A DNA stretch of 45,101 bases, from contig JAHJAO010000069.1 in the NCBI GenBank assembly GCA_018813905.1, positions 1-45,101 of the forward strand, written 5' to 3'. Origin of the DNA: Candidatus Omnitrophota bacterium (GTDB lineage: Bacteria > Omnitrophota > Gorgyraeia > B26-G9). This document shows, piece after piece, positions 9,694-43,705 of the stretch; position 1 is the first letter of the stretch, and each line of letters begins with the position of its first letter. Under the pieces are notes generated by a model. It was given only the letters and a program-made list of their open reading frames with translations, did not search any database and was not told the origin of the DNA. The translations under genes were made by a program, and so were the position numbers.

Positions 9694-10618
9694 AAAGAGC
9701 GGCGAGGAATATTGTTTCAAGCAATTTTATATTGCGATGACAAACAGATGCAACCTGCAATGCATCATGTGCGCCACAACCAGGCATGACCATACAAAAG
9801 AGGGCGAGTTATCTTTAGAGCAGTGGGAATTGATCATAAACAATATTACAAGATTCAAAGTTGATAGCATCGGTTTTGGCGGAGGAGAGCCATTATTAAG
9901 ACGGGATTTAGCTGAGCTTATCAGGATCGTTTCAGCTAAAGGCATCATGGTAAATATTATTACCAATGCTACGTTGCTTAACCAGTCTTTTTTGGAACGT
10001 CTTGCCGGGCATAAAAAGAAGATAGTTTTTTTGCTTTCGTTAGATGGGTTGGAAAAAGATAATGACGGTATTAGGGGCAGAGGGGTTTTTAAAAAAGTCA
10101 TGGAGGCAGCAAGCCTCCTGAAAAAATATGACTGGACTTTTTATTTTACCTCTGTGCTTATGCCCGAGAATTTTTTTGGATATATAGATTTTTTAAAGTT
10201 TATTATACAAAAATACCCCGGAGTATTTATGGATATCCAGCCGGTGATTCCTCACAACGAAATTTATTATCGCAGAAATAAATTTAAATTAGACAAAGCA
10301 CAAGCGGATGCCTTAAATGACATAATTATATTTCTTGGGGACAGCAAAAATAAATTAAACTTATGCCGGCCGCTAGAAGTTATTTGCCAGTACAAAGATT
10401 ATTTTATTGGTTCACTGCGAAGCGCGAACCAGTGCAAGATGGGCACGGCAAGTTTTAATATTAATCTAAGAGGCAACATCTGGGTTTGCGGCAAAGAATT
10501 AGACTACCCGTTATACGAATATAAGTTAGAAGATGTATTGGGAAGCAGGGAATATTTGACAGAAATGACAAGAGTTAAAAATTGTAATTCCCCATGCCTT
10601 GCGGGGCTAGTTATATAA
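9659..10618 (+). CDS. Radical SAM protein with SPASM-like C-terminus, array member 3
   Basis: The motif CNLQCIMC (C31, C35, C38) precedes FGGGEPLLRRDLAELI and LSLDGLEKDNDGIRGRG, all standard for the SPASM/twitch branch. The C-terminal CKMGTASFNINLRGNIWVCG followed by CNSPC would ligate an auxiliary cluster, fewer cysteines than a full SPASM domain. The gene overlaps the previous one by 35 bases from this ATG. A second in-frame ATG at 9677 would reduce the overlap to 17. The 319-residue length is short for the array. Its function is unknown, but the overlap implies co-translation with its neighbours. Confidence 0.83.
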   Translation: MKDIAVMKNVDKKSGEEYCFKQFYIAMTNRCNLQCIMCATTRHDHTKEGELSLEQWELIINNITRFKVDSIGFGGGEPLLRRDLAELIRIVSAKGIMVNIITNATLLNQSFLERLAGHKKKIVFLLSLDGLEKDNDGIRGRGVFKKVMEAASLLKKYDWTFYFTSVLMPENFFGYIDFLKFIIQKYPGVFMDIQPVIPHNEIYYRRNKFKLDKAQADALNDIIIFLGDSKNKLNLCRPLEVICQYKDYFIGSLRSANQCKMGTASFNINLRGNIWVCGKELDYPLYEYKLEDVLGSREYLTEMTRVKNCNSPCLAGLVI

Positions 10619-10646
10619 TAAACAAGGCCAAAGGCGTTTTAAAACT

Positions 10647-11735
10647 ATGGACACACAAACTATCCAACGAGTTAGGAATGGCTTGAATGACCCCCGAATT
10701 GGTCCGGAAACAATTGCTCTAATGTTGACCAGGGTCTGTAATTTTAGTTGTGTATATTGCCGCGGCGGTAGACCGGCTACAAAAAACAATCGGACGCGTA
10801 ATGTTGCAGATGAGTTGGCGGCTGAAGAGCTATTTGAGTTGCTAGCGGATGCGCACGAACTTCAAGCGAAAGAGATAAATTTAGGAGGGATGGACGGGGA
10901 GCCTTTTTGCCGAATGGATATTGCGGATATAATGACCCAGATTAAGAAACATTGTTTTACAGGCTCATTGACCTCCAATGGCAGTTTTTTGAATGTAAAG
11001 ATGGCAAAAATGATGACCGATTGCGGCTGGGACATTCTTTTGCTCAGTTTAGACGCTGCAGACGCTTCTATCCAGCAAACACTGAGGCCGGCTCATGACG
11101 GCAAGCCTTACTTTGCCGGCATAATTGAATTTTTAGATTTTCTAAATCGTAATGAAAGCGGATTGAGAATTTTACTTAATGTAGTTATAAGCAAGTTAAA
11201 CTATAAACAATTACCCGAACTTGTCAAATTCGCAGATAATTATAAAAATATTGAATCAATAAATGTTTTGAAAATGCTTAACATGGGGCTAGAAAATTAT
11301 GGGGATTTGCAGCTTAACAGGCAGGAATTAAATGAATTTAAATCGATTCTTTTTGATTTAAACAGTAACAAATTGAAATATTTGGGTAATTGGCTGGGGG
11401 GCGGCGATGAAGAAGAGAGCGGCTTAAGCCTGCGAGGGGCAGAAATATCGCCTCTTTTGCGGGAAGAGCCTAAGAGATGTTACGCTAATTATTATATTCT
11501 TTCCATAGACTCAAATGGGGATGTAATACAATGCCCGCAGCATCAAAAAGTGATCGAAGGGCTTAATATCCGGAAAACCCCATTAAGGGAATTATGGGCA
11601 AACGAACACTTGCAATTTAGGCGGAAAATGGCTGATTACGCTTATTGCTTTGATGAATGCTGCACTATTCTGAAAGAACAGAACAAATTAATATATAAAA
11701 ACATAACGCCGGCCGACATTGAAAAAGGGCGATAA
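10647..11735 (+). CDS. Radical SAM/SPASM protein, array member 4
   Basis: This 362-residue protein carries CNFSCVYC (C31, C35, C38), a GGMDGEPFCRMDI block in place of the usual GGEP, and a C-terminal auxiliary-cluster region. That region reads CYANYYILSIDSNGDVIQC followed by a DECC cysteine pair. It is the most divergent member of the array: it lacks the FY-x-SR N-terminal pattern of members 2, 5, 6 and 7. Its GGMDGE insertion near the SAM-binding strand is unusual. It begins 28 bases after the previous stop, with no clear ribosome site, and is probably part of the same transcript. The substrate is unknown. Confidence 0.82.
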   Translation: MDTQTIQRVRNGLNDPRIGPETIALMLTRVCNFSCVYCRGGRPATKNNRTRNVADELAAEELFELLADAHELQAKEINLGGMDGEPFCRMDIADIMTQIKKHCFTGSLTSNGSFLNVKMAKMMTDCGWDILLLSLDAADASIQQTLRPAHDGKPYFAGIIEFLDFLNRNESGLRILLNVVISKLNYKQLPELVKFADNYKNIESINVLKMLNMGLENYGDLQLNRQELNEFKSILFDLNSNKLKYLGNWLGGGDEEESGLSLRGAEISPLLREEPKRCYANYYILSIDSNGDVIQCPQHQKVIEGLNIRKTPLRELWANEHLQFRRKMADYAYCFDECCTILKEQNKLIYKNITPADIEKGR

Positions 11736-11744
11736 CTTGTTAAA

Positions 11745-12821
11745 ATGTTAAAAAATTTAGCGTTCTATATCTCAAGAAAAGCGTGTTATCCTCTTGTCGC
11801 GCCGGATGTGCTGCAATTGTCTATCACAACAAGCTGCAATTTGCGCTGCAAATCATGCAATGTTTGGAAACAGCCAGAGGACAAAAAAAACACTTTGACC
11901 TTTAGCGAGATGCAGCATATTATTGACGAAGCCGCCTGTTGGGGAGTGAAGGAAGTTCATTTATTGGGCGGAGAACCGCTGTTAATGAGCGAATGGGGCG
12001 ATATTGTTGCGCATGCAAAATCAAAAGGAATGTTTGTTGTTATTTGCACGAATGGAACGCTTATTGATGATACGGTAGCGGGGCGAATTTTAAGTAAAAA
12101 AGTTGATTTATTGAGCATCTCTTTGGATGGGGCGAAAGCACAGACGCATGATTCTTTAAGAGGGCAAGATAATGCGTATGATAAGATTTTAAAAGGCTTG
12201 GCCATCTTAAATATGTTTGATAACCCGGAAAAGCCGAAGGTGGTGCTGATACTGACCGTATCAAGAAAAAACTTATTTGAACTGAAAGAATATATAGATT
12301 TAGCAGAAAAGTTTTCTGTTTATGGCGTATATTTTACCGCATTGGTGTTAGATAATGTAAGTTTATTTTCTAAGATAAAAACTCACGATTTGTGGATTGA
12401 ACCCAAAGATTTTGGAAACTTAAACGCTTATTTCCAAGAGGTTGAAAAGTACGCTTCTTCAAAAGGGTATTATTTAAATTATCCAAGTTTTAAATTATTC
12501 CCCAAATATTTTAAAGGGGAACTGCAGCGCGGGGATTGGCAATGTTTTGCCGGATTAAAAAGGTTAGTTGTTACGCCTGCCGGGGATATCCAAATTTGCG
12601 GCAAGACGGTGGGTAATTACAAAAAATCAAAAAGCATCAAAAAAACATGGCGGTCTGCCGAGGCGTTTAAAAGAAGACGGTTTGTGTTAAAATGTACCAA
12701 TTATTGTCTTCAGGATTGTCATGCCCGGTCAGAGTCCAGTTCTTTTTTGGAGATAGCAAAAGAGGGGTTAAAAATATTTAGCCGGCATATGCAGAGTTAT
12801 AAAACAAGCAATAAAAGATGA
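11745..12821 (+). CDS. Radical SAM/SPASM protein, array member 5
   Basis: The SAM cluster motif is CNLRCKSC (C31, C35, C38), followed by LLGGEPLLMSEWGDIV and LSISLDGAKAQTHDSLRG. The C-terminal SPASM-type region begins CFAGLKRLVVTPAGDIQICG and ends with a C-x3-C-x3-C group (CTNYCLQDC). The N-terminus reads NLAFYISRKACYPLVAPDVL, the shared amphipathic lead of four array members. The start lies nine bases after the previous stop. Similarity to the next two genes suggests tandem duplication followed by divergence. Its role is unknown. Confidence 0.84.
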   Translation: MLKNLAFYISRKACYPLVAPDVLQLSITTSCNLRCKSCNVWKQPEDKKNTLTFSEMQHIIDEAACWGVKEVHLLGGEPLLMSEWGDIVAHAKSKGMFVVICTNGTLIDDTVAGRILSKKVDLLSISLDGAKAQTHDSLRGQDNAYDKILKGLAILNMFDNPEKPKVVLILTVSRKNLFELKEYIDLAEKFSVYGVYFTALVLDNVSLFSKIKTHDLWIEPKDFGNLNAYFQEVEKYASSKGYYLNYPSFKLFPKYFKGELQRGDWQCFAGLKRLVVTPAGDIQICGKTVGNYKKSKSIKKTWRSAEAFKRRRFVLKCTNYCLQDCHARSESSSFLEIAKEGLKIFSRHMQSYKTSNKR

Positions 12822-12885
12822 TGTAACGGCCTGTGTCTTGCCGGTGCGGACCCATAACCTTAATTTTTGCAATTTGTTAAACTTG

Positions 12886-13920
12886 ATGAAAAAGCTTCTT
12901 TTTTGGCTTTCAAGAAAAATAAATTATCCAGTGGTATCGCCACAGGTTTTACAGGTTTCGCTTACTTACAGGTGCAATCTGCGATGCCGGATGTGCACGC
13001 TTGTTAATTTGCACCCGCAAGAAGAAGAGTTATCTACGGGGCAAGTAATACATTTAATCGAAGAAGCAATAAAGTATAAAATCCCAGAAATTTTATTTAC
13101 CGGAGGCGAGCACTTTCTTCGGGAAGATATTTTTGAAATATGCCGCTATGTTTGTAAGCGAGGAGCGCGCAGCGTGATCACGACTAACGGGACGTTAATT
13201 AATGAGCGCATCGCCGGTCAAATAATGGGGTTAGGCAAAACCCATATCCATTTTTCAATAGACGGGCTGGAAAAAACCAACGATTATTTTCGAGGAGAAG
13301 GTGCGTTTAAAAAAGCAGCTCAGGCGATCGAACTATTAATAAAGGGAAGGTCAAACAAGCCGGGTATTTCTTTGGGGATTGCTTGCACCGTAATGAATGA
13401 AAATACACATGAATTATTAGACATAGTAAAATTTGCGGATGAAATCGGAGTCGATGTGGTTAATTTTCAACCCGTGGCCGAAGATAATGCAAGGTTTCTT
13501 AATGAAAAACTTCCATTTTCTTGGGTAAAAAAACAGAATATTCCGTTTTTGATACAGCAGATAAAGAACATTAGAAAGTATACCCCAAAACATGTTTTTA
13601 TATATGAAGAGCCGCATCTTGAGCTATTAATACCGTATTATGAAAATAAACTTACCCGGCGGGACTGGATATGTTTCGGCGGCTTTAAGACGGCCTTTAT
13701 CTGTTTTGAAAAAAGAAAACCTTTGTTATATAGCTGCGATGGCATCTGCGGCAAGTTAGATGAGGTGTCATTAAAACAAGCTTGGCGATCAAAGGAAGCT
13801 TATAAATTACGTTTGCATTCAAAAAATTGCAAAAATTTGTGCATGCAAAGTTGTTATTCAAAAGAAATATCGCAAAGCTTGGTTAACCTGTTAAAATTTT
13901 ATTTTAAAAATAAAAGATAA
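12886..13920 (+). CDS. Radical SAM/SPASM protein, array member 6
   Basis: I chose ATG 12886 (344 residues) rather than the upstream TTG at 12838. From here the N-terminus MKKLLFWLSRKINYPVVSPQ lines up with the start of array member 5. The core motif is CNLRCRMC (C30, C34, C37), with FTGGEHFLREDIFEI, where the GGE motif is followed by His instead of Pro. The C-terminal part has CFGGFKTAFIC and CDGICGKLDEVSLKQAWRS, ending CKNLCMQSC. The extra EKRKPLLYS insertion is absent from its siblings. There is no strong ribosome site, which suggests coupling to the previous gene. The substrate is unknown. Confidence 0.83.
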   Translation: MKKLLFWLSRKINYPVVSPQVLQVSLTYRCNLRCRMCTLVNLHPQEEELSTGQVIHLIEEAIKYKIPEILFTGGEHFLREDIFEICRYVCKRGARSVITTNGTLINERIAGQIMGLGKTHIHFSIDGLEKTNDYFRGEGAFKKAAQAIELLIKGRSNKPGISLGIACTVMNENTHELLDIVKFADEIGVDVVNFQPVAEDNARFLNEKLPFSWVKKQNIPFLIQQIKNIRKYTPKHVFIYEEPHLELLIPYYENKLTRRDWICFGGFKTAFICFEKRKPLLYSCDGICGKLDEVSLKQAWRSKEAYKLRLHSKNCKNLCMQSCYSKEISQSLVNLLKFYFKNKR

Positions 13921-13922
13921 AC

Positions 13923-15014
13923 ATGAACACATTTTTAAAGGATAATCGGCGCAGCCTTAAAAAAAATATCGAGTTTTATTTTGGCAGGCTGATCGGCTTC
14001 CCTTTGACGACGCCGGAACACGTATATTTTTCTTTAACCAACCGCTGCAACTTGCAATGCCGGATGTGCGATATTTATAAAAATCCTGACAGCAAAGAAA
14101 ATGAGCAATCGACCAGTGAGGTTAAAGCCATAATCGCGCAGATAAAAAACATGTCCATAAACCACATTATTTTTTCCGGTGGCGAACCCCTGCTTCGGCA
14201 TGACTTACTGCACTTAGTGGAATTTGCCGTGGCCAAAGGGATTGGCATGGTGGACATTATAACTAACGGGACACTGCTCAATGATAAATCGATTAAAAAA
14301 ATTATAAAAAGCAAATTGAACCACATTACCATCTCCTTGGATGGACTGGGGAAAATCAACGATGAAATTAGAGGTAAGGGCGTTTTTGAAAAAGCGCAGC
14401 TAAACATGGACAAACTTAATTATTACAAAGCAAAATATGCCGCGGAGTTCCCCACCTTAGGCATAAATTTTACGATTATGAACAACAATCTAGAGCACAT
14501 TTTACCAATTATCGAATTTGCCCGAGCGAAAAAGTGCAATATTCTTGTCCTGCAGCCGCTGCTTTTCGACAATACAAACATGCAGGAGAAGAGGACTAAC
14601 TTTCTCTGGCCCGCGGAAGATAAAATAGATCGGTTGCGGGAGATCATGAAAGAAGTGATGAAGAAAAAGAACCAGCTAAATGACTTATTTATTTATACTG
14701 ATGAAGCGATATTAAAAGCTATGCCGGAGTATTTTAAAGGTCACAGAGCGAGCCCTAATTTTAAATGCTATGAGGGGATAAAAAGGATAGTTATTACTGC
14801 GGACGCAAAGGTGTGGAGTTGTCTGGGAGTTTACGGTGACCTAAAGAAGCACGCTTTAAAAAAAATATGGTTTTCCCCGGCTGCCTGGAAGATAAGAAGG
14901 AAAGCAAGCCAATGCCGGGAGCATTGCTTACAAGATTGTGTTTATTTCCCCATAGATGTTTTGAAAGACATAAATAATTTCATACAGCAAATATTAAATA
15001 GCCGGAGGCAATAA
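13923..15014 (+). CDS. Radical SAM/SPASM protein, array member 7
   Basis: Three bases after the previous stop begins a 363-residue radical SAM protein. It has CNLQCRMC (C42, C46, C49), FSGGEPLLRHDLLHLV and ISLDGLGKINDEIRGKG. The C-terminal SPASM-type part reads CYEGIKRIVITADAKVWSC, then CREHCLQDC. The N-terminus IEFYFGRLIGFPLTTPEHVY is the divergent form of the shared FY-x-(S/G)R lead. It is the last intact gene of the array. The bases right after it hold the remnant of yet another radical SAM gene, so the array was longer once. Confidence 0.84.
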   Translation: MNTFLKDNRRSLKKNIEFYFGRLIGFPLTTPEHVYFSLTNRCNLQCRMCDIYKNPDSKENEQSTSEVKAIIAQIKNMSINHIIFSGGEPLLRHDLLHLVEFAVAKGIGMVDIITNGTLLNDKSIKKIIKSKLNHITISLDGLGKINDEIRGKGVFEKAQLNMDKLNYYKAKYAAEFPTLGINFTIMNNNLEHILPIIEFARAKKCNILVLQPLLFDNTNMQEKRTNFLWPAEDKIDRLREIMKEVMKKKNQLNDLFIYTDEAILKAMPEYFKGHRASPNFKCYEGIKRIVITADAKVWSCLGVYGDLKKHALKKIWFSPAAWKIRRKASQCREHCLQDCVYFPIDVLKDINNFIQQILNSRRQ

Positions 15015-15329: not shown

Positions 15330-16823
15330 ATGGCAATACCACGAAAATTAATTTTTAATAATATACAGATAAAATATGGACCGATTTCAGGGGTTTTTTT
15401 AATTGCTTTTGCCTTGCGTTTATTTCGCTTGGGCTATCACGATTTTTGGTATGATGAAATAGGCAGTGTTGGATATGCGCTATGTCCCTGGAACCATTGG
15501 AACGCGCCGCTTTATGGGATAGTGCTGCATTTTTGGGTAAAGATTTTTGGAGTTTCTGAATTTAGCCTGCGCATGCCATCTTTAATATTCAGCTTTTTGT
15601 CTGTAGTTTTAATCTTTTTTTTCGGCAAAGAGCTTTTTAATAAAAAAACCGGGCTTATCGCTGCTAGTTTAATGGCACTATCCCCGTTTCATTTATGGTA
15701 TGCTCAGGAAGCGCGCGATTATTCTATGCTCTTATTTTTTGGGTTATTATCAAGCTGCTTTCTTTTTAAGGCATTGAAGAATCCCGACGGCAAAAACTGG
15801 ATATTTTTTCTGCTTGCCTCATTAGCGGGCTTATATGCCAATTATTTTTTCATTTTCTTATTTATTGCCCAAGGCAGATATGTCGGGATGTTTAAAAAAG
15901 CCGCATTTAGCTTGAAAACTGTTATTTGCTTTTTATTGGTTATTTTGTGGTTTACGTTATATTTACCCCGCTTTTTAGAAAAATTTTATTTTGTCTGGGC
16001 GGGGTTTTGGTTGCCAAAACCAGAGTGGAAATCATTGCTGATTACTTTTGAAAATTTCCTGTTGGGTTATAGCGGAACCCCCCTCCTTTATTTTGTCATG
16101 AATGTATTGGCCGTGGCGTCTTTTATGTGCGGATTAATTGCGATACGCGGCAATAAAGAATTCAAAAACAACTTTGTATTCTGTTGTGGTTTAACATTTA
16201 TCCCGGTTATGCTGGCGTTTGTTTTTTCCCGGACATTTTTCTCCGTATATTTGGATCGCGGGTTGATTGTATTTAGCCCTTATTTTTATCTTATAGTGTC
16301 TTTAGGCGTAGTTTCTGCCAAGCGAGCAGCAAGAATTTCTTTGCTTTGTATTTTAGGATTGCTTTTTATCATAGCCGATTATAGATATTTTACCGATCGG
16401 ATGTATGAGCCGTTGATTCATCACATCGGCACTTATATAAAAAAACCGATACGCCCCCTAGTTAGATTTATAGAAGACAACTTGAAACCAAACGACACCC
16501 TTGCCTTTACTCATCCTGCGCCTTTGAATGAGTACGGCTTCTATAGTCGCATTAAATCGAAATCCATATATCAATTTTTTGACCCTCAATTTTTAGATTC
16601 AAGATGGCAAAGGCCTGTATGGGAGGACAAATATCGCCTGCCTTTTTATAAGATAAACGGTTTGGAATTTGAAAGGTTATGGGTGGTTTCTTCGAATTGG
16701 GCAAAAAATGGGACCTTAGATGAACATTCCCAATCAGTCAAAAACTGGTTGGAGGAAAATTTTAAGCGGGAATTTGAGAAAGAGTTCAACGGGGTATGGG
16801 TGTTCAGATATGTTAAAAACTAA
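15330..16823 (+). CDS. GT-C (GT39/ArnT-like) membrane glycosyltransferase
   Basis: A multi-pass enzyme that would transfer a sugar from a polyprenyl-phosphate donor on the outer face of the inner membrane. I start at ATG 15330 because AGGAG (15319-15323) lies six bases upstream; an ATG at 15312 falls inside the ABC fossil. The first-loop motif is FWYDEIG (Asp-Glu pair). The second block, LSPFHLWYAQEARDYSM, is the hallmark of this GT39-like branch. About ten hydrophobic segments follow and a soluble C-terminal part of about 140 residues. Relatives sit at 25814 and 27542. The acceptor is unknown; the position just before the peptide-modifying genes makes peptide or protein glycosylation conceivable. 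Confidence 0.85.
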   Translation: MAIPRKLIFNNIQIKYGPISGVFLIAFALRLFRLGYHDFWYDEIGSVGYALCPWNHWNAPLYGIVLHFWVKIFGVSEFSLRMPSLIFSFLSVVLIFFFGKELFNKKTGLIAASLMALSPFHLWYAQEARDYSMLLFFGLLSSCFLFKALKNPDGKNWIFFLLASLAGLYANYFFIFLFIAQGRYVGMFKKAAFSLKTVICFLLVILWFTLYLPRFLEKFYFVWAGFWLPKPEWKSLLITFENFLLGYSGTPLLYFVMNVLAVASFMCGLIAIRGNKEFKNNFVFCCGLTFIPVMLAFVFSRTFFSVYLDRGLIVFSPYFYLIVSLGVVSAKRAARISLLCILGLLFIIADYRYFTDRMYEPLIHHIGTYIKKPIRPLVRFIEDNLKPNDTLAFTHPAPLNEYGFYSRIKSKSIYQFFDPQFLDSRWQRPVWEDKYRLPFYKINGLEFERLWVVSSNWAKNGTLDEHSQSVKNWLEENFKREFEKEFNGVWVFRYVKN

Positions 16824-16869
16824 TCGAAAAACAGCTATTCGGGAAAACTTTTATCCGATAGAGGAGAGG

Positions 16870-18510
16870 ATGTTCTCAGCCGAAGCGGCTTTGATTATCC
16901 TGATCATAAAGAGGATTATTTACGGCAAAGACGAATACCTGGAGGATTTGTTAAGCTCGCGCCGGATAAATTGGGGTATATTTAAAGAACTTAGTATTTA
17001 TCACGGGATAGCGCCTTTTATCTATTCGATTTTTAAAGAGTTGCCTGCGATAATTCCAGCCTCTTTGATGGATTTTTTAAGAAATGATCAATATAGTAAT
17101 TTAGTCAACAACCAGATTCTTTGGCAAGAATTTTTACAAATATCAAAAAAATTTGAAGAGAAAAAGATTGCTATTGTCCCGATAAAAGGAACAGCATTTT
17201 TAGAAGATATATACAAGCAGCATCCGTTTAGGCCAATGCTGGATGTGGATATTTTAGTCAGGGAAGAGGAGGTTTTAAAAGCAGAAGCGATTATTTGCTC
17301 TTTAGGATACAAAAAAGAACTGTTTGGCTTAAAAGAGGATTATTGGAAAAAAAAGCAATGCCATCTCAGTTTTTGTAAAAAAGATAAGCCTTTAATAGAA
17401 ATGCATTTTGCTCTGGATTTCAAACGGAATAATCATAAGATATTGCCGCGCTTATGGGAGCGAATAAGGAAAATTTACGGTAAAGGGGAACATATACAAG
17501 TGTTGTCTGTGGAAGACAGCCTCTTTAGTTTATGTTTACATTTGCGGAGACTTGGAAAAACTCTTAGTTTGAAAAATGTTTGTGATGCAGCGTTATTGTT
17601 AAATAAATATAGGGGAAACATCAATTGGGAGTATCTTTTAAAGCAGGCCTATCAAGATAAAATGCGTACCGCGCTATTTTTTCTTTTGTCTGAAGTAGTA
17701 ATCATGACGGGTGTTGGGATCCCAAAAAGCGTTTTGAAAGAATTAAACATTTCAAAAAGCATAAAGTTTTTAATAGAAAAGTTTATATATAAAAATACAT
17801 TTTCTCCGAACATAAGCAAAAAGGTTAAAGATTTATATGCAAAAGAACATTTTCTTTTATATGATAGTCTTATAGAGCCACTGATATATATTTTAAAAAT
17901 ACCAAAGGAGCAATTTGCTAAATTTTATAACCTTAAGCCTTATAATAAAAAGACAGATTTTTTATATAAAATACGCTTAGCGTTTATCATTTTTAAAGCG
18001 GGTTCTAATTTATGCAAACCAGTGATAATGAGAATTATAGCCAGTAAACAAAAGCCCAATTTTTTTAAAAAAAATGATGAAACGGCAAAGGGGGCGCTTT
18101 TTTTTAAAACCCAAGGTTTTAGCATGTGGCCGTTTCTAAAAACAGGGGATAAGGTAGTGATAAGCAAAAGGCCTGCGGAAACGCTAAAGATCGGCGATGT
18201 GATTTTGTATAGGACAAGCAATAAAATTGTTTGCCATCGTTTAATAAGGGAAGTAAAAACTGAAAAAAAGCGTTTTTTTTATGCCCGGGGCGACAGTTCC
18301 ACAGATTCCGCAGAACTTGTGGATGAGAAAATGATTTTAGGTAAAATAGCAAGTGTGATAAAAAATGGCCAGGTAATTAGTTATCTTGATAAAAGACAAG
18401 AAATTATTAATTTGATTATAGTTTATATTTCTCCACTGATTGCCGGTGCTATCGGATTAATAAAGCCGCTTTATGGTAGATTAAAAAGGGGTGTAGCTTT
18501 TAAAAAATAA
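16870..18510 (+). CDS. Nucleotidyltransferase-family domain fused to a signal-peptidase-like (S26/S24) domain
   Basis: I prefer ATG 16870 (546 residues), which follows GAGGAG closely; earlier in-frame starts at 16720 and 16810 overlap the GT-C gene. Residues about 10-300 match the NTP_transf_5-like nucleotidyltransferase family: NWGIFKELSIYHGIAPFIY, VPIKGTAFLEDIY, then the metal-binding LDVDILV (near 122-128). Such proteins occur in some lasso-peptide clusters. The C-terminal part from about residue 410 is a signal-peptidase-like domain. It has GFSMWPFLKTGDKVVI with the expected nucleophile Ser near 418, then IVCHRLIR with His in the place used by the Ser-His (SipW/ER) type, and YARGDSSTDS. 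Two hydrophobic segments end it. The fusion would join peptide tailoring and leader processing in one protein; this is inference. Confidence 0.78.
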   Translation: MFSAEAALIILIIKRIIYGKDEYLEDLLSSRRINWGIFKELSIYHGIAPFIYSIFKELPAIIPASLMDFLRNDQYSNLVNNQILWQEFLQISKKFEEKKIAIVPIKGTAFLEDIYKQHPFRPMLDVDILVREEEVLKAEAIICSLGYKKELFGLKEDYWKKKQCHLSFCKKDKPLIEMHFALDFKRNNHKILPRLWERIRKIYGKGEHIQVLSVEDSLFSLCLHLRRLGKTLSLKNVCDAALLLNKYRGNINWEYLLKQAYQDKMRTALFFLLSEVVIMTGVGIPKSVLKELNISKSIKFLIEKFIYKNTFSPNISKKVKDLYAKEHFLLYDSLIEPLIYILKIPKEQFAKFYNLKPYNKKTDFLYKIRLAFIIFKAGSNLCKPVIMRIIASKQKPNFFKKNDETAKGALFFKTQGFSMWPFLKTGDKVVISKRPAETLKIGDVILYRTSNKIVCHRLIREVKTEKKRFFYARGDSSTDSAELVDEKMILGKIASVIKNGQVISYLDKRQEIINLIIVYISPLIAGAIGLIKPLYGRLKRGVAFKK

Positions 18511-18526
18511 ACATAGGAGGATGATG

Positions 18527-18808
18527 ATGAAGAAAACAATGGTTTTGCATAAAAATCCAGAGATGGTAACAAGAGTACTTGGTGATGAAACGCTGCTTTT
18601 ACCTATTTATAAGAGGGCAGATGAGATAAAGTGTATTTATTCCTTAAATAAGGTTGCCTCAGAGGTCTGGAAAATGATTAACAGCAAAAGGATACTCTCG
18701 GAGATCAAAAAGCTCATTTTAAAGAAGTTTGATACGACGAAGAAAGAGGTGGACAAGGAAATGCAAAAATTCCTCAAAGATTTAAGGCGGATAAAGGCGA
18801 TAAAATGA
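18527..18808 (+). CDS. PqqD-like RiPP recognition protein
   Basis: This small protein (93 residues from ATG 18527) has AGGAGG at 18515-18520 with six-base spacing; two more ATGs at 18521 and 18524 are too close to the ribosome site. The sequence follows the PqqD pattern: NPEMVTRVLGDETLLLPIY, then IYSLNKVASEVWKMINSKR, EIKKLILKKFD and a C-terminal helix FLKDLRRIKAI. PqqD domains form a small winged-helix fold that binds the leader of a precursor peptide and presents it to radical SAM enzymes. Its stop overlaps the next start as ATGA. It strongly marks this stretch as a peptide-modification cluster, with the precursor at 22918. Confidence 0.85.
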   Translation: MKKTMVLHKNPEMVTRVLGDETLLLPIYKRADEIKCIYSLNKVASEVWKMINSKRILSEIKKLILKKFDTTKKEVDKEMQKFLKDLRRIKAIK

Positions 18809-19773
18809 TTCTCCTTCACAAAAAATTCATCAAAGATAAAATCAGATGCCAGGCCTATCAAAAGGCGATTCGAGAGGTAATAAAGCAAGGGGATGTGGTT
18901 ATAGACATAGGTGCGGGTTCGGGCCTGTTGAGTTATTTTGCTCTTCGGGCAGGGGCAAGAAAGGTGTACGCTATAGAGCAAAACGGCAGCTTAATCGATG
19001 CGGCTAGAAAAATAGCCAAGGCCAATGGGCTGGACAAGAAAATCACATTTATTAAAGGTAACTCGGCGAAAGTTACATTGCCGGAAAAAGCGGACGTAGT
19101 TATTTGCGAGATCATAGGCTTTCTGCTCCTGGAAGAAAATATTATAAAGTATCTGCATGATGCAAGGGCGCGGTTCTTAAAGAGAACGGGTATTTTAATG
19201 CCGTCGCATGGAGAAATCATAATAGCGCCGATAGAAGCACCGAAGTTTTACAGGCAAAGGGTTGACTTTTGGCGGGGCAAAAAATATGGGATTGACTTCT
19301 CAGAGATTCGAAACCATGCTGTTAATTGCTATTATCCGATCAAGATAAAACCAGCTGACTTATTAGCTTCTCCCGCAGCTGTTTGCTCAGCAGATTTTTA
19401 TAAGATAAAAAGCGCCCGGCAGCTATATCCGCAGGGAGTTTTTGAGTTCGATATTGCCAGAGACGGTATGTTATATGGGCTAGGCGCCTGGTTTTGCGTA
19501 AAACTATCAAGGTCTATATCGCTTTCTAATTTACCGGGCAGCGTCCTTCATTGGAAACAACGCTTCTTCCCTATTCAGAATCCCGCGCCGTTAAAGAAAG
19601 GAGATAGAATAAGAGGGAAAATAATCGGCAGCTATTTGCCTGGAACAATGGTTTGGAGCTGGAGCATAGAGGTCCAAAGAAAAAAGAAGAGAGACAGCCA
19701 TGATAAATCTGAAAGAACTTATTTTAAGCATTCAACTCTTTACAGCAAACCCCTATCAAGGCAAACCGTATAG
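18805..19773 (+). CDS. PRMT-like SAM-dependent methyltransferase
   Basis: The class I methyltransferase motif I is VIDIGAGSGLLSYFALRAGA (33-52), followed by acidic Glu58 of motif post-I (YAIEQN). The segment CEIIGFLLLEEN has Glu102 and Glu111 nine residues apart, matching the 'double-E' loop of protein arginine methyltransferases. LHWKQRFFPI at 248-257 matches the THW loop of that family (Thr replaced by Leu). The C-terminal half has the beta-barrel-like pattern of PRMTs. The last ~30 residues are a basic tail. Arginine methylation of a peptide is the natural guess: the candidate precursor has two arginines, one in the leader and one two residues from the C-terminus. The start overlaps the PqqD-like gene (ATGA). 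Confidence 0.78.
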   Translation: MILLHKKFIKDKIRCQAYQKAIREVIKQGDVVIDIGAGSGLLSYFALRAGARKVYAIEQNGSLIDAARKIAKANGLDKKITFIKGNSAKVTLPEKADVVICEIIGFLLLEENIIKYLHDARARFLKRTGILMPSHGEIIIAPIEAPKFYRQRVDFWRGKKYGIDFSEIRNHAVNCYYPIKIKPADLLASPAAVCSADFYKIKSARQLYPQGVFEFDIARDGMLYGLGAWFCVKLSRSISLSNLPGSVLHWKQRFFPIQNPAPLKKGDRIRGKIIGSYLPGTMVWSWSIEVQRKKKRDSHDKSERTYFKHSTLYSKPLSRQTV

Positions 19774-19783
19774 GCATAGATAA
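19700..19783 (+). CDS. Possible 27-residue peptide ORF
   Basis: In the +1 frame of the methyltransferase tail, ATG 19700 opens MINLKELILSIQLFTANPYQ followed by seven more residues and a TAA three bases before the next radical SAM start. AGAAGAGAGA lies about eight bases upstream. It may be a tiny gene, a coupling leader for the radical SAM gene or chance. It does not resemble the clear precursor at 22918. Confidence 0.2.
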   Translation: MINLKELILSIQLFTANPYQGKPYRHR

Positions 19784-19786
19784 GGC

Positions 19787-20827
19787 ATGAAAGACATTTC
19801 GTATAAAAGATTTAATCTGAATATCCGTAAAAAGGGCTGGAGCCTGAACAGGCCTAAGGTCTGCCAATTTGAGCTGACTTTTAAATGCGATTTGCGTTGT
19901 AACTACTGTTATGTGGATTGTTATAATAATCCGGCATACATAAAGAAGGAATTAAATACTCAGCAGGTAAAAAATATTATTGATAAAATTTACGCCGCCG
20001 GAGTCCTTTGGCTGTATTTTAGCGGCGGAGACCCGTTGACGCGGCCCGACTTTCTGGAACTTTATTCATACGCCAAAGAAAAGGGATTTATCATAGCGCT
20101 GTTCACAAACGGCTATTCAATAAGTAAGGGAGTTGCCGGCTATCTATCGAAGAAACCGCCGGCTAAAATCGAAATTACTTTAAATGCGGCTGATGAAGCA
20201 TTGTATGAGAAAATATCACAGGTAAGAGGCTCTTTTGCTAAGGTAATGCGGGGGATAGATATGATGCTGAAGGCAAAGCTGCCGCTGAAGATAAAGACAC
20301 AGCTAACCAGGGATAATTTAGAAGAAGCGAATAATATAAAAAGATTTGTTGAAAAATTGGGCTTAGGCTTTTGGCCGTCTTTTGGCATAAGCCCGCGTTT
20401 AAACGGCGATTTCTCGGCCTGCGGCTTGAGAGTATCGCCCGATGAAGTCCTGCGTATACCCGGGGTAAAAATTTTATTAAAAGAAGAAATTTTACGCGCA
20501 AAGCCCTCTTTGTGCCAATGCCTTCTTGAGAAAAAAGACTGCGTTCACCTTGATCCTTACGGGAATACCTTTAGCTGCACTACAGTGAGAAAGCCTTCTT
20601 TTAGCCTTCTTAGAGTAGATATTGAAACCGCCCAGAAAAAATTATTATCTCTGGCAAGGGTTTGGGAATCTGCAGCCTTCTCAAAATGCAAAAGCTGCGG
20701 CTTAAGAAAACTATGCGCCTTTTGTCCGGGCATGGCCTATCTTGAAAAAGGAACGATGAAAGAAGTTATCCCTTATTATTGTGAATTGGCAAAAGCCACA
20801 AAACGGCAAATGTGCGGCAAGACGTAG
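19787..20827 (+). CDS. Radical SAM/SPASM peptide maturase A
   Basis: The 346-residue protein has CDLRCNYCYVDCYNNP (C34, C38, C41), whose extra Tyr-Cys continuation is common in peptide-modifying radical SAM proteins that work with PqqD-type partners. FSGGDPLTRPDFLEL follows, with Asp instead of Glu in the GGE block. The C-terminal SPASM domain is complete: CVHLDPYGNTFSC, then CKSCGLRKLCAFCPGMAYLE and a final YYCELA. It most likely installs a thioether, C-C or similar crosslink, or an epimerisation, in the precursor encoded at 22918. Which reaction cannot be told from sequence. It is adjacent to a paralogue of the same geometry. Confidence 0.86.
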   Translation: MKDISYKRFNLNIRKKGWSLNRPKVCQFELTFKCDLRCNYCYVDCYNNPAYIKKELNTQQVKNIIDKIYAAGVLWLYFSGGDPLTRPDFLELYSYAKEKGFIIALFTNGYSISKGVAGYLSKKPPAKIEITLNAADEALYEKISQVRGSFAKVMRGIDMMLKAKLPLKIKTQLTRDNLEEANNIKRFVEKLGLGFWPSFGISPRLNGDFSACGLRVSPDEVLRIPGVKILLKEEILRAKPSLCQCLLEKKDCVHLDPYGNTFSCTTVRKPSFSLLRVDIETAQKKLLSLARVWESAAFSKCKSCGLRKLCAFCPGMAYLEKGTMKEVIPYYCELAKATKRQMCGKT

Positions 20828-20831
20828 AGCA

Positions 20832-21884
20832 ATGAAAACCCAGACCTACAATATCTTCAGGAAGCGGATGCTCAACAAGGCCAGAGATAAAGGGTTTCCT
20901 TTATTGATGATTTTCGAGCTGACATATCGCTGTAATTTCAAATGCAAACACTGCTATCTGCCTGCGGCTTATAAGAAAAAAAGGGGGGAACTAAAAACGA
21001 AGGAAATATTTACTATCCTGGACCAATTGAAGGATACGGGCTGCCTTTATTTAAGGTTTACCGGCGGCGAGCCGTTTATGAGAAAAGATATCATGGATAT
21101 CCTGCGCTACGCTAAAAAACGCGGCTTTGAGCTTATTATTTATACCAACGGCTCATTAATAGATGAGAGAATGGTCGGAGAATTGACTGCCTTGCGGCCG
21201 GATATAGAGATCACTATCCCGGCAATGAGCAAGAGTGTCTTTGAGCGAATTTCCGGAGTGGTTGGTTCTCGTAATAGAGTTTTTAACAGCACCAGGCTTT
21301 TGCATAAGAAAGGGGCCAGTTTGAGGCTTAAGACCTGTGCGTTAAAAGCGAATGAGGAAGAAATAAAAGATATCCGGGATTTTGCCGCTTCTTTAAAAAT
21401 TCCCTACGAGTTTGATGCCATGGTGTTGCCGCAGCTAAATGGCTCAAGGAAACCCTATAGATACAGAACACGCAAAATTGAAGACATGATACAAATGGAA
21501 AAAGTTGACTTAAATAGAGATACCACTTACAGCTGGGTTCCGGATACCGGCGATCTTTTTAATTGCGGCGCAGGTCAAATGAAAGCGGCAATTACTCCAA
21601 GGGGCTGGTTAAAGACGTGCGTGAATATAGATAAGCCTATATTTAATATCTTGGAAAGCTCTTTCAGGAATGCCTGGGAAGACTTGAAGAGATTTGTGGG
21701 AAGCATTAAGCCAGGGGATGATCACCGCTGCGCTAAATGCGAATTGAAGCTTTATTGCGCGTGGTGCCCGGGGATGTCATGGCTTGAAAACAGGAATTCT
21801 ACTGGATGCAATCTTCAATGCCGCCATTTTGCTGAGTCTAGAAAGAAGAATCAAAAGCAGATATACAGGGGCGATGATAAGTAA
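20832..21884 (+). CDS. Radical SAM/SPASM peptide maturase B
   Basis: I use ATG 20832, four bases after the previous stop, instead of the GTG at 20781, which overlaps it. The protein then has 350 residues, and the cluster cysteines C34, C38, C41 (CNFKCKHC) fall at exactly the same positions as in maturase A. FTGGEPFMRKDIMDIL and ITIPAMSKSVFERISG follow. The SPASM domain reads CGAGQMKAAITPRGWLKTC, then CAKCELKLYCAWCPGMSWLE and a final CNLQCRHFAE. Tandem duplication of A and B is likely. The two could act on different residues of one precursor or as a pair. Confidence 0.86.
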   Translation: MKTQTYNIFRKRMLNKARDKGFPLLMIFELTYRCNFKCKHCYLPAAYKKKRGELKTKEIFTILDQLKDTGCLYLRFTGGEPFMRKDIMDILRYAKKRGFELIIYTNGSLIDERMVGELTALRPDIEITIPAMSKSVFERISGVVGSRNRVFNSTRLLHKKGASLRLKTCALKANEEEIKDIRDFAASLKIPYEFDAMVLPQLNGSRKPYRYRTRKIEDMIQMEKVDLNRDTTYSWVPDTGDLFNCGAGQMKAAITPRGWLKTCVNIDKPIFNILESSFRNAWEDLKRFVGSIKPGDDHRCAKCELKLYCAWCPGMSWLENRNSTGCNLQCRHFAESRKKNQKQIYRGDDK

Positions 21885-21912
21885 TTACATGGATTAAAAG
21901 GGTTGCTGAAAA

Positions 21913-22845
21913 ATGCTAAATTATAAGGTGAGAATTAAAATTGCGGGTGTGATTGTTCAGGCCCAGAGCGATATTGCGTTTACAAAAATTATAAAGCAAG
22001 CGCAAGAATCCTGTTTCTTGACGCATTTCGATAAGCTCATTTATAAAGGAAGGCAAAAAAGCAGTGTTTCTATTATTATAAAAAGGGTAAATAAGCTGCC
22101 GCAGATTTGCAATGCAAAACAGGTTTTTATTATGAATAAAAGCTGGTGTTTGCTTGAGAAGGGAAATAAGTATATTTACAGAATTATGCTTGAGAATAGC
22201 AATAATGAACAGGTAATAATCGCGAATAGAACCTTTACTATAATAACGGCATATGTTTTATCGGTTAAAGATAAAAGGTGTTTAATAGAAAATATATCTA
22301 GTATTTGTAATTTTTTACAGGTCTTATTGGCGCGGAATTTCGCGAAAAAAAGATGCGGCGTTCTTGTCCATGCCGCTGGGATAAAACGGCAAAATGGCAA
22401 AGGATTTGTTTTTGCTGGTAAATCCGGCGCAGGAAAAAGCACAATGTCCGATTTTTGGAGCAAACAGAATAAGACAGTAGTGCTAAATGATGAGCGTATT
22501 ATTATACGTAAAATAAAAAACAGATTTTTTATATTTGGCTCCCCTTTTCAGCGAGGTAATTTTTGTGACATTCTGAGTTTAAAAATAGAAACAGTTTGTC
22601 TTGGGAGTATATTCTTTATTTACCATGCTTCAAAAAATAAAATAAAAAAACTATCAGAAAAAGAAGCATTTATGTGGATTTTTCCCGTGCTTTTTCCTGT
22701 TTTCTGGGATAAAGATTGTTTAAAAAATATTGTTTTATTTTGCCAGGATTTAATTAAAAAAGTTCCGTGTTATCGTTTAGGATTTGTAAATAATAAAAGT
22801 GTTGTCGGTTTTGTGAAAAAGTACGATAAAAGACATAATAGATAA
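21913..22845 (+). CDS. HPr-kinase-like P-loop kinase
   Basis: This 310-residue protein has an N-terminal region without a clear fold. The C-terminal HprK-like kinase domain has VLVHAAGI with His153, Walker A GKSGAGKST (169-177), VVLNDERIIIRK and FGSPFQRGN. HprK homologues in RiPP loci, for example lasso-peptide kinases, phosphorylate Ser residues of the peptide rather than HPr. The full HPr kinase/phosphorylase signature for HPr binding is not evident. It lies directly before the precursor gene, whose core holds serines. A role as peptide kinase is therefore the best inference; a docking role without catalysis is also possible. Confidence 0.75.
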   Translation: MLNYKVRIKIAGVIVQAQSDIAFTKIIKQAQESCFLTHFDKLIYKGRQKSSVSIIIKRVNKLPQICNAKQVFIMNKSWCLLEKGNKYIYRIMLENSNNEQVIIANRTFTIITAYVLSVKDKRCLIENISSICNFLQVLLARNFAKKRCGVLVHAAGIKRQNGKGFVFAGKSGAGKSTMSDFWSKQNKTVVLNDERIIIRKIKNRFFIFGSPFQRGNFCDILSLKIETVCLGSIFFIYHASKNKIKKLSEKEAFMWIFPVLFPVFWDKDCLKNIVLFCQDLIKKVPCYRLGFVNNKSVVGFVKKYDKRHNR

Positions 22846-22866
22846 AGAGATAATTTTTTGTTAGAA

Positions 22867-22872
22867 TATAAT
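22867..22872 (+). promoter_or_regulatory. Candidate -10 element for the precursor gene
   Basis: A perfect TATAAT stands 45 bases before the precursor ATG, in the only sizeable gap of this operon. No matching TTGACA lies 16-18 bases upstream, so the promoter call is tentative. A separate promoter would let the precursor peptide be made in excess over its enzymes, as is usual. Confidence 0.35.
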
Positions 22873-22917
22873 AGTACTTGGCTTTACCCCTAGATCAATA
22901 TTTTAAGGAGATATAAT

Positions 22918-23055
22918 ATGAAAAAGGTTCAGAAAACAGATAAAAAAAAGCCGAAAAAACATAAATTTAATCCGGTAATTACTCGGATAAAACTTCAACC
23001 GGAACAGGCGTCACTTAGTTGTTGTTATCCTGCGGCCCCAAGTACCCGCAATTGA
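22918..23055 (+). CDS. RiPP precursor peptide (45 residues)
   Basis: A strong ribosome site AAGGAG (22905-22910) lies seven bases before this ATG, the best in the region. The encoded 45-mer is very lysine-rich up to residue 16. It then has a leader-like block ITRIKLQPEQASLSCC (21-36) and a nine-residue tail YPAAPSTRN. The pattern P-x-(I/V)-x-R-(I/V)-x-L-x-PE-(Q/E)-A-x-L followed by Cys resembles precursors I associate with PqqD/radical SAM peptide clusters. The likely core is SCCYPAAPSTRN or a part of it: two adjacent Cys, one Tyr, three Ser/Thr and one Arg. These suit the thiol-, kinase- and methyltransferase-type enzymes next door. It is flanked by the kinase gene and the ABC exporter. The start is clear; the cleavage site and final product are not. 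Confidence 0.82.
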   Translation: MKKVQKTDKKKPKKHKFNPVITRIKLQPEQASLSCCYPAAPSTRN

Positions 23056-23173
23056 GACTTATTGTTTTTGTAATGAAGATTTATTGCTTCCAAAGAGCAG
23101 AAGAACTGTGGGTATAATCCATGATTTTCAGCTAAGGATTAGGGTAATGCTCTGCATTAGTCAAGGGATATTT

Positions 23174-23311
23174 ATGTTAAGAGATAAGCTTCTTGTTATA
23201 GTTTTTAAAGCGCTGTCTAGGCGTCAGATTATTGAGTGTCTGATGGAGGAAATGAAGTCGCAAAAAAATAAATGGATAAATTTAATGAAATCAAAATTAA
23301 ACGCTTATTAA
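23174..23311 (+). CDS. Possible 45-residue small protein coupled to the exporter
   Basis: ATG 23174 follows AAGGGA at six-base spacing. It opens MLRDKLLVIVFKALSRRQII and a charged C-terminal half that overlaps the exporter start by 40 bases in another frame. The N-terminal half is hydrophobic and then basic, so a membrane-associated helix is possible. The exporter ATG at 23272 has no ribosome site of its own, which fits translational coupling to this frame. I do not recognise a family. The same frame reaches back to a TTG at 23084, with no added support. Confidence 0.35.
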   Translation: MLRDKLLVIVFKALSRRQIIECLMEEMKSQKNKWINLMKSKLNAY

Positions 23312-25035
23312 GATTCTTTAGCCTTCTCTCGCCCTATCGTAATAAGTGGGTGCTGATATTCATATTAAGCGGGTTAAGCGCAGGGTTGAGTTTGATCAAC
23401 CCCTATCTTACCAAGTTCATAGTTGATGAAGCAATAGGTAGTAAAGATTTAAGAATTCTTGTTATTTTACTATTAATTGTTGGAAGTGTTTTTATTGGCG
23501 GCAGCCTAATAGATATACTAAAAGAATTTTTAGGTAAGTATATAAACCGCAGGGTGTATTTTGATCTGAATAAGAAGGTTTTTAGACATATCCAGGATTT
23601 CCCTTTTTTATGGTTTGTCGATAGATCTACCGGAGAGCATATTTATAAGATTAGTTACGATATAAATAGGGTGACGAGTTTTGTTACGATAACACCAACC
23701 CAGGCGATATCCCTTTTCCCAAGGTTATTATTTAGTCTTATAATCGTATTTTATCTTAACTGGAAGATGGCAATTCTCGCCTTTTTACTTACGCCATTTT
23801 TGTATTTACCTCCTTATTATTTCAGCCGAAAGCTGAGCAGGATTTTTAAAACTTTATTTGAAAACTCTCAGGGTATGTTTAGTAGTCTAGCAGAGGTTTT
23901 TTCGCATATTCAGCTGATTAAGGCCTGCGGAAAGGAGTCTTCTACCATTCGGAATTATTTAAAGAGATTAATTGTTAATATGAAGATAGAGAAAAAGCAG
24001 ACAAGATTAGAAGTCTTTAGTGATTGCACTACTGATATAATAAACAAGCTTATAATTGGAATAATTGCATTATATGGTGGTTATCAGGTAATAAAGAGTA
24101 GGATGAGCTTAGGAAGCCTTACGGCGATTATGGTTTATTTTGGCCAATTGATGGGGTTACAGGGCCAATTCGCTTACTTTTTTCAAAATACTATTAGGGG
24201 AATTGTTTCCGGTCAAAGGATAGCACAAATTTTGGATGAGAGGACAACGCTGATCGAGGCTGAAAATGCAAAAAAGGTAGTATTTAAACAAGGAGAAGTG
24301 GTTTTTAAAAATGTTGGTTTTGGTTATAGAGAAGGAGAATATATATTAAAAAATATTAGTTTTGATATTAAAGGCGGCAGGCATATTGCTGTTGCCGGCC
24401 CTTCCGGCTGCGGCAAAAGCACGCTGTTGAACCTTATCCTGCGCTTATATGACCCGTTAAACGGGGGTATTTTTATTGACGGGGAAAATATAAAAGAATT
24501 AAGTTTTAAGTCATTACGCGGGCAAATAGGGATGGCTTTACAGGATCCGTTTTTATTTAATGATACAATAAAAAGCAATATCGCTTATGGGATAGAGGGT
24601 GCAAGCGATAAAGAGATTCTTGAAGCAGCCCGGCTTTGCGGCATAGATGCGTTTGTTGAAGGGTTGGCATTAAAGTATGAGACGGTTATCGGCGAAAACG
24701 CCTGTAAAATTTCCGAAGGCCAGAAACAAAGAATTGCTATTGCCAGAGCCCTGATTAAAAAGCCAAAAATCCTGATAATGGATGAAGCAATGTCGTCTTT
24801 AGACTCCGAAAGGGAAGAAGAGATATTATCGAAGATAAAACAGATTCAAGGAATATCAACCTTAATTGTAGTATCGCACAGATTATCCACTTTAATGGCT
24901 ATGGATAGGGTTTATTATCTTGCCGATAACGAGACAGTGGTAGCGGATAACGCACAAAACCTACTCAAAAATAATACAAGCTTTTCTAAATTATTTGCCT
25001 CCCAGGTGTCGGGGTGTGATTTAAAAATATGTTAA
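23272..25035 (+). CDS. ABC exporter, fused permease-ATPase (peptide or lipid type)
   Basis: The 587-residue half-transporter has a six-helix transmembrane domain at residues 1-310 (MsbA/LmrA type) and a nucleotide-binding domain at about 335-575. Walker A is GPSGCGKST (near 376-384), the signature is ISEGQKQRIAIARA (near 479), Walker B is ILIMDEAMSSLD and the H-loop is VVSHRL. There is no N-terminal C39 peptidase domain, so leader removal would need another enzyme, such as the signal-peptidase fusion at 16870. Immediately downstream of the precursor gene, it is best read as the exporter of the matured peptide, though lipid-linked sugars are an alternative. Part of this gene (24470-24524) is duplicated as the fossil at 15226-15311. 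Confidence 0.85.
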   Translation: MDKFNEIKIKRLLRFFSLLSPYRNKWVLIFILSGLSAGLSLINPYLTKFIVDEAIGSKDLRILVILLLIVGSVFIGGSLIDILKEFLGKYINRRVYFDLNKKVFRHIQDFPFLWFVDRSTGEHIYKISYDINRVTSFVTITPTQAISLFPRLLFSLIIVFYLNWKMAILAFLLTPFLYLPPYYFSRKLSRIFKTLFENSQGMFSSLAEVFSHIQLIKACGKESSTIRNYLKRLIVNMKIEKKQTRLEVFSDCTTDIINKLIIGIIALYGGYQVIKSRMSLGSLTAIMVYFGQLMGLQGQFAYFFQNTIRGIVSGQRIAQILDERTTLIEAENAKKVVFKQGEVVFKNVGFGYREGEYILKNISFDIKGGRHIAVAGPSGCGKSTLLNLILRLYDPLNGGIFIDGENIKELSFKSLRGQIGMALQDPFLFNDTIKSNIAYGIEGASDKEILEAARLCGIDAFVEGLALKYETVIGENACKISEGQKQRIAIARALIKKPKILIMDEAMSSLDSEREEEILSKIKQIQGISTLIVVSHRLSTLMAMDRVYYLADNETVVADNAQNLLKNNTSFSKLFASQVSGCDLKIC

Positions 25036-41441: not shown

Positions 41442-41549
41442 TTAATGCCGCTGGGGAAGCTACGCGCTGCATGTTAAGAATACATTTTGTTAATAACAAT
41501 ATTTCTGATTTAATGTGAGCCTTTATACATAAAAACAAGGATTAATCAT

Positions 41550-42572: not shown

Positions 42573-42598
42573 AAGGGTGCTTAAAAAAGAAGAATCTT

Positions 42599-43645: not shown

Positions 43646-43705
43646 AAGTAGATTTAAATTAAAATGTATTTTTACAAATAACTTATTCTGATAAAAAAGA
43701 AAGCA

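Follow-up and report, generated by a model that had tools for sequence, protein, structure and literature searches.

We wanted to know what a compact group of genes in a Candidatus Omnitrophota genome encodes, and whether it belongs to a known peptide system. The window, i.e., the whole stretch of 45,101 nucleotides that was analysed, contains the genes collected in Table 1. An earlier note had read them as a RiPP cluster. Every gene that it listed is present as an ORF at the position given, and Pfam and NCBIfam recognised the PqqD-like protein, the nucleotidyltransferase-signal-peptidase fusion and the ABC exporter. Both SPASM radical SAM proteins have complete SPASM Cys sets. We consider it probable that the cluster is a member of an undescribed radical-SAM RiPP family in Omnitrophota, with a proposed kinase/nucleotidyltransferase route.

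Table 1. Genes of the candidate RiPP cluster (positions in the window)
Feature	Position	Strand	Evidence
PF14907 nucleotidyltransferase (~83-323) fused to S26/SipW-like signal peptidase (~454-574)	16720..18510	+	Pfam 3e-39; TIGR02228 1e-12, slightly below cut-off
PqqD-type RiPP recognition element, predicted leader binder	18521..18808	+	Pfam PqqD 3e-9
PRMT-like methyltransferase, type I fold	18805..19773	+	PRMT_C 5e-17
Radical SAM/SPASM enzyme alpha	19787..20827	+	CxxxCxxC and SPASM Cys invariant in 16 homologues
Radical SAM/SPASM enzyme beta	~20829..21884	+	Cys motifs invariant in 13 homologues
HprK/PEPCK-fold kinase, motif-diverged	21913..22845	+	Fold match and 25-member alignment
Precursor peptide, 45 aa	22918..23055	+	Leader KFNPVITRIKLQPEQASL, short core SCCYPAAPSTRN
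ABC exporter (membrane and ATPase)	23272..25035	+	Pfam ABC_membrane/ABC_tran

The lack of a conserved precursor next to homologous genes had been set beforehand as grounds for giving up the RiPP reading; we ran this search and found the precursor adjoining homologues in many genomes. A Shine-Dalgarno-like AAGGAG lies upstream of the 45-aa ORF. Its leader was recovered at E 5.3e-15 by a profile built without the window precursor, while the reversed window, searched as a control with the same profile, gave a best E of only 3.9. In relatives, the leader goes together with the marker PqqD (9 of 11 vs 1 of 135 genomes, Fisher p = 8e-12). A chance ORF was therefore rejected. All family precursors, 99 sequences so far, share the leader KFxPxITRVKLNPEQAVL followed by a hypervariable core, with a mean pairwise identity of 69% in the leader vs 14% in the core. 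The leader is conserved across many families and is present in 31 of the 384 class genomes. Beyond Omnitrophota, it was detected in one of 49 genomes that came via loci from other tools (a few of them are themselves Omnitrophota), a Thermodesulfovibrionia (Nitrospirota) MAG with a type IV system. One locus, L101, has the enzymes but no recognised precursor. Neither leader type matched NCBIfam and the type I leader had no match in Pfam, so membership in a known precursor family was also rejected.

The cores carry Cys in one of two patterns, CxC(Y)...C or CCD...R...QC...C. In 80 of the 89 precursors whose core has at least 20 residues the last residue is Ser, and in another 5 it is Thr, vs a Ser background of 10.7% in the preceding 30 residues. 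The precursor count ranges from one to at least 35 per genome; a 1.4 Mb Omnitrophota genome encodes no fewer than 35, and G217 has a single kinase gene vs at least 35 leader motifs. One kinase gene serving many precursors suggests, at the level of gene counts, a combinatorial arsenal. An encoded precursor with a conserved leader and a variable core, next to modifying enzymes, is what a RiPP is expected to have, and the RiPP reading is upheld by this organisation at the level of sequence. Leader, patterned-Cys hypervariable cores and recurrent enzyme set are established at the sequence level, and from them we infer the chemistry of the products.

About 15 loci share a gene set of PqqD, two or three SPASM enzymes, an HprK/PEPCK-fold kinase, a PF14907 nucleotidyltransferase, an S26-type peptidase and an ABC exporter. 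The window PqqD is 62-68% identical to the PqqD of three other Omnitrophota clusters. PqqD is joined to the leader as a fusion in four precursors; in the AlphaFold model of one of these, the leader strand has a pLDDT of ~95, and the best PDB match is the lasso B1 protein TbiB1 with its leader bound (1.8 A). The PqqD, the natural fusions and the TbiB1-like model point to an RRE-dependent RiPP in which leader binding is predicted.

The loci of the family carry three orthologous SPASM enzymes, alpha, beta and, in most members, gamma, with complete Cys sets. The nearest solved structures are SkfB and PqqE for alpha, and PqqE and SkfB for beta. Searched against NCBIfam, alpha and beta had no family-level match to sactipeptide or ranthipeptide maturases, with scores far below the cut-offs. 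The gamma profile had no close match in the window genome, which is rich in radical SAM proteins (35 profile matches); the proteins that scored best with it there were the alpha and beta enzymes and one of type IV. SPASM enzymes also work in non-RiPP roles, which counts against the RiPP reading, and the product of a radical SAM enzyme is not deducible from sequence.

The kinase is present as claimed, but it is more diverged than the label "HprK-like" implies. No Pfam family scored above cut-off for the window kinase and a PDB sequence search returned essentially P-loops alone; its AlphaFold model matches ATP-dependent PEPCK (E 1.9e-8). H153, K175 and D193 are invariant in the 25-member alignment, in which the window kinase alone has D194 changed to E and PWHG to PFQRG. 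The nucleotidyltransferase DxD is invariant in 18 of 18 homologues, and the peptidase has its catalytic Ser in 19 of 22 and its His in 22 of 22. These two proteins are fused in 7 further loci and encoded by separate genes in the others. The exporters are 44-56% identical in homologous clusters (L095, L097, L102, L103, L151 and L153).

The PRMT was rightly listed, but it is specific to the window copy and does not define the family, with two other clear instances. It occupies the slot where relatives have the third radical SAM enzyme. Its best PDB match is PRMT2 (9e-39), with the double-E loop Glu pair and the HW motif aligned, and by sequence it has the fold and motifs of a type I PRMT. Homologues were found in a lasso cluster (G082), in an HprK/radical SAM cluster (G151) and weakly in G129, and in no others. 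Given the relatives in the G151 and G082 clusters, there seems to be more than one case of a PRMT taking part in RiPP tailoring.

Does the family then match a named class? The claim that no class could be named holds in that no named precursor family matches, but there are near neighbours among the named systems, namely the SynChlorMet cassette defined in NCBIfam and the enzymes that tailor phosphorylated lasso peptides. SynChlorMet (ScmC-ScmF; TIGR04248-TIGR04251) also combines a PqqD relative, two SPASM radical SAM enzymes and an HprK/PEPCK-like protein, and 22 of 25 family kinases weakly match ScmC and HprK_rel_B. Bit scores stay well under the cut-offs (ScmC 29.8/125, ScmD 21/100, ScmE 72-73/400, ScmF 64-72/400) and, as compared via the NCBIfam profiles, the window family adds a nucleotidyltransferase, a peptidase and an exporter. 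It also has an identified precursor, whereas we know of none for SynChlorMet. A literature search on SynChlorMet and on this gene combination found no papers.

The paeninodin and pseudomycoidin systems contain a PqqD-type B1, an HprK-like kinase, a nucleotidyltransferase, an ABC exporter and a C-terminal Ser (PMC9266682). The window family shares this set of parts, and its fusion model is nearest to TbiB1. Contrarily to lasso clusters, it has two or three radical SAM enzymes and Cys-rich hypervariable cores. The lasso cyclase is absent from the cluster, as had been noted; both the B2 protease and the asparagine-synthetase-like cyclase are missing from the cluster and from the Pfam-scanned ORFs of the window, and a lasso identity was rejected. 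Of the paeninodin-type tailoring features, the family has the His-Lys-Asp-Asp kinase and the Ser-ending precursor, while the window has Asp-Glu and a core-final Asn.

As in sactipeptides and ranthipeptides (SkfB, PapB, RumMC), SPASM radical SAM enzymes are expected to act on Cys cores, and SkfB is nearest to alpha; the family differs by its discrete RRE, its kinase, nucleotidyltransferase and peptidase tailoring, and its up to three maturases. In prochlorosins, as in the window family, a small number of enzymes faces many scattered precursors that share a leader and have hypervariable cores; the window family uses radical SAM enzymes in contrast to the lanthipeptide synthetase of prochlorosins, and the leaders are unrelated.

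We propose the following route. PqqD would bind the leader strand (xITRVKLNPEQAVL) and present the precursor; alpha, beta and usually gamma would then cross-link the conserved Cys. The C-terminal Ser, which hardly varies in the family, would be phosphorylated by the HprK/PEPCK-fold kinase; by analogy with pseudomycoidin, it would also receive a nucleotidyl or sugar moiety from the PF14907 nucleotidyltransferase, which is often peptidase-fused. PadeK and PsmN are precedents for phosphorylation and glycosylation of a C-terminal Ser (PMC9266682). Finally, the S26-type peptidase would cut off the leader and the ABC transporter would export the product, although no clear motif in the leader marks a cut of the signal-peptidase kind. 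We give about even chances to the broader picture of a large combinatorial class, in which up to three SPASM enzymes cross-link Cys cores, the near-universal C-terminal Ser receives a phospho-sugar or nucleotide from kinase and nucleotidyltransferase, one enzyme set serves dozens of precursors in trans with RREs in places fused to their own precursors, and the window is a PRMT-methylated offshoot.

The window itself is a poor type specimen. The 45-residue precursor is real but unusually short for the family: its core has 12 residues, ends in Asn instead of Ser and has no third Cys, and the kinase motifs are altered. The proposed route depends on both this Cys and the final Ser, so that the window precursor counts against it. 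This copy may be decaying or repurposed. Decay, with open enzymes, a truncated precursor, a failing kinase and hence no mature product, is a serious candidate to which we give somewhat less than an even chance. The changed DD and PWHG motifs and the absence of gamma from the window genome agree with it, as do the family precursors without terminal Ser or Thr, which are nearly all short, and four other short precursors that look like remnants, mostly adjoining intact copies. Yet all enzyme ORFs are intact with their catalytic Cys kept, and conservation of the leader is good. None of the downstream frames gives the core a Ser end, so a hidden frameshift was rejected. The precursor is the sole one with such a leader in its genome, where a search for a second found none; this genome is 92% complete, so another may be missing.

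A repurposed sub-class that has lost gamma and Ser phosphorylation, and in which the PRMT methylates the core Arg (STRN) of a short product, seems to us possible though rather unlikely. The PRMT sits in gamma's slot with apparently intact catalytic loops, its relatives belong to an HprK/alpha cluster and a lasso cluster, and the core holds one Arg. However, this is a single genome, the Arg is a putative target, and the core of the G151 precursor is of full length and closes with SS. On the main reading, the window copy seems to be horizontally acquired and diverged or decaying, having lost gamma and Ser decoration and gained the PRMT.

It is improbable that the cluster makes a cofactor (PQQ/mycofactocin-like) or a peptide that binds metal through CxC, in place of a hypervariable weapon or signal. 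PqqE and SkfB are nearest to alpha and beta, and the conserved CxC and CC motifs might bind metal; cofactor precursors like PqqA, however, conserve their core, whereas these cores are hypervariable outside the Cys and the C-terminus and number dozens per genome. Finally, the genes on either side of the cluster include a flippase and glycosyltransferases of the PMT and GT2 types, confirming the surface-glycan setting described earlier, but a role in glycan assembly with a chance ORF or a small regulatory protein is strongly disfavoured by the precursor family and highly improbable, since the leader is conserved over many families and even fused to PqqD, and several homologous loci have no match to the probe glycosyltransferases.

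An Omnitrophota genome survey does not mention RiPPs (PMC10066038), and the main-text passages considered from a Cariaco Basin study describe BGCs of Omnitrophota that are expressed, as well as RiPP genes of a PqqD-like kind, but no such family (PMC9902471).

With the radical-SAM RiPP family proposed here, concrete precursors can be assigned to a type of gene set for which, to our knowledge, the named analogue SynChlorMet offers none. It leads to a sharp prediction, drawn from precursor ends and lasso analogues, that the kinase would act on the C-terminal Ser, and its PqqD-precursor fusions are ready-made cis substrates for structural studies. If true, a combinatorial class would join lasso-type end tailoring to radical cross-linking. 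Omnitrophota are tiny uncultured cells, some of them thought to depend on other cells, and we know of no isolate of the phylum; with so many precursor genes in one small genome, they appear to invest in peptide arsenals.

The earlier note had listed a PqqD, two SPASM radical SAM proteins, a PRMT-like methyltransferase, an HprK-like kinase, a nucleotidyltransferase-peptidase fusion, a precursor and an ABC exporter. Each of these genes was found as an open frame with the expected domains on contig C16 of the own genome (G000), a MAG of the Omnitrophota kind that is 92% complete, and the second radical SAM gene has its nearest named relatives in Omnitrophota MAGs. When clusters around homologous PqqD genes were compared by tblastn, nine further genomes proved to encode this leader close to the same set of enzymes; the note had named the lack of a conserved precursor beside homologues as what would refute its reading. 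A profile built from the leaders of those nine genomes' clusters, with the window peptide left out, matched the window peptide with an E value of 5.3e-15, the top match in the reversed window having an E value of 3.9. Among 147 relatives, own genome excluded, a strong leader match was obtained in 9 of the 11 genomes with a close PqqD (E < 1e-19) versus 1 of the 135 others (Fisher p = 8e-12); in the class sample, the leader was present in 31 of 384 genomes. Neither NCBIfam, searched with both leader types, nor Pfam, searched with type I, yielded a matching precursor family. Judged from sequence, the 45-residue ORF is a real precursor.

We then collected 99 distinct stop-terminated precursors from the compared loci. 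Mean identity between pairs was 69% in a 15-residue leader segment versus 14% in the first 25 core residues, and four core types were distinguished. Among the 89 cores of at least 20 residues, the last residue was Ser in 80 and Thr in 5, against a background of 10.7% Ser in the 30 preceding residues. Genome G217 held 35 exact leader codon-pattern matches, versus 0 in a reversed-pattern control, against a single kinase gene. Precursor arrays, tandem and dispersed, were seen with no recognised enzyme genes nearby (L163, L164 and L170 in G217; L180 in G097). Type IV also occurs in a Thermodesulfovibrionia MAG, so this branch is not limited to Omnitrophota. The own genome carries a second, type IV pair, for which no precursor was found in its assembly.

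Features of the precursor family and its surroundings
Feature	Location	Details
Precursor ORF	window 22918-23055	45 aa; Shine-Dalgarno-like AAGGAG few bases upstream
Core type I		xCxC(Y/W/F/H), at least one further Cys, 35/36
Core type II		CCD...R/K...QC...C; at least 4 Cys in 34/34
Core type III	G097	VC.GG.Y...C...KGG...PS
Core type IV	window's own family; Nitrospirota MAG	CK...C...C...GS; one radical SAM
Type IV system, Thermodesulfovibrionia (Nitrospirota)	L186 1414-2960; L187 1417-1596	CK...C...C...GS precursors
Type IV PqqD-radical SAM pair	L114 3-873 (G000:C126)	cut by contig end
PqqD-precursor fusions	L148 2312-3148; L185 11487-12233; L162 1854-2408; L161 3592-4131	RRE in cis to own leader and core
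Variant cluster	G151:C1 (L202, L159)	precursor, alpha, U32 peptidase, HprK, B12-radical SAM proteins, PRMT, exporter, peptidase
Lasso cluster	G082:C34, L201 7434-13478	PF14907 nucleotidyltransferase, B2, PRMT-like methyltransferase, asparagine-synthetase cyclase, HprK kinase
Further radical SAM ORFs (~12)	window 7088-15014, 35446-36975, 40323-44734	crowd glycan locus; several SPASM, two with B12-binding domains
Delta-aminolevulinic acid dehydratase gene	window 37236-38090	mid glycan/radical SAM region

The SPASM proteins fall into three orthologous groups (alpha, beta and gamma), all with invariant CxxxCxxC and C-terminal Cys, and among solved structures alpha and beta come closest to SkfB and PqqE. 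A radical SAM profile gave 35 matches in the own genome. In the kinase alignment His153, P-loop Lys175 and Asp193 are invariant, and the predicted model matches PEPCK-type kinases. The nucleotidyltransferase DxD is kept in 18/18; it is fused to the peptidase, which has an ER/SipW-type Ser-His pair, in eight ORFs including the window's. PqqD is fused N-terminally to a precursor once each in G025 and G084 and twice in G274; in the G084 model the leader strand is confident and the top PDB match is the lasso B1 protein TbiB1 with bound leader. A lasso peptide was rejected for the window cluster since, as the note had stated for the cyclase, B2 and cyclase are absent from the cluster and from the window ORFs scanned with Pfam. 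SynChlorMet (TIGR04248-04251) is the nearest named gene set, but the family's scores are all well below its cut-offs.

The window copy is, by its sequence, atypical. Its core, SCCYPAAPSTRN, lacks the third Cys and the terminal Ser; its kinase is the only one of 25 aligned with Asp194 replaced by Glu, and PWHG reads PFQRG. No gamma was found in the own genome, and PRMT occupies its slot. The note was right about the kind of system but not in its emphasis, PRMT and the short CC core being particular to this copy, not to the class. Because the window PqqD shares 62-68% identity with its counterparts in three other families, and its own family elsewhere has type IV systems or none, we infer that the cluster was likely gained horizontally; this copy may be decaying or repurposed. 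PRMT relatives sit near precursor, alpha, HprK, exporter and peptidase in G151 and, in G082, within a lasso cluster that also encodes a nucleotidyltransferase, B2, cyclase and HprK. Both cases suggest that PRMTs sometimes serve to tailor RiPPs. A PRMT inside a lasso cluster appears unusual.

Lasso genes are often accompanied by HprK, PqqD and nucleotidyltransferase genes (PMC7533575). In the paeninodin pathway, PadeK adds phosphate to the precursor's C-terminal Ser, a step for which His-Lys-Asp-Asp is required, and PsmN is required for hexose on the C-terminal phospho-Ser (review PMC9266682). The sequences establish the division into leader and core, the co-occurrence, the fusions, the conservation of the terminal Ser, and the enzyme folds and motifs. 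In the proposed pathway, PqqD would present the precursor, alpha, beta and gamma would cross-link Cys (possibly sacti- or ranthipeptide chemistry), the kinase would, on the precedent of PadeK and PsmN, phosphorylate the terminal Ser, the nucleotidyltransferase would decorate it, and the peptidase and exporter would perform the last steps. The window cluster is probably part of a sizeable unnamed radical-SAM RiPP family with predicted lasso-type end tailoring.
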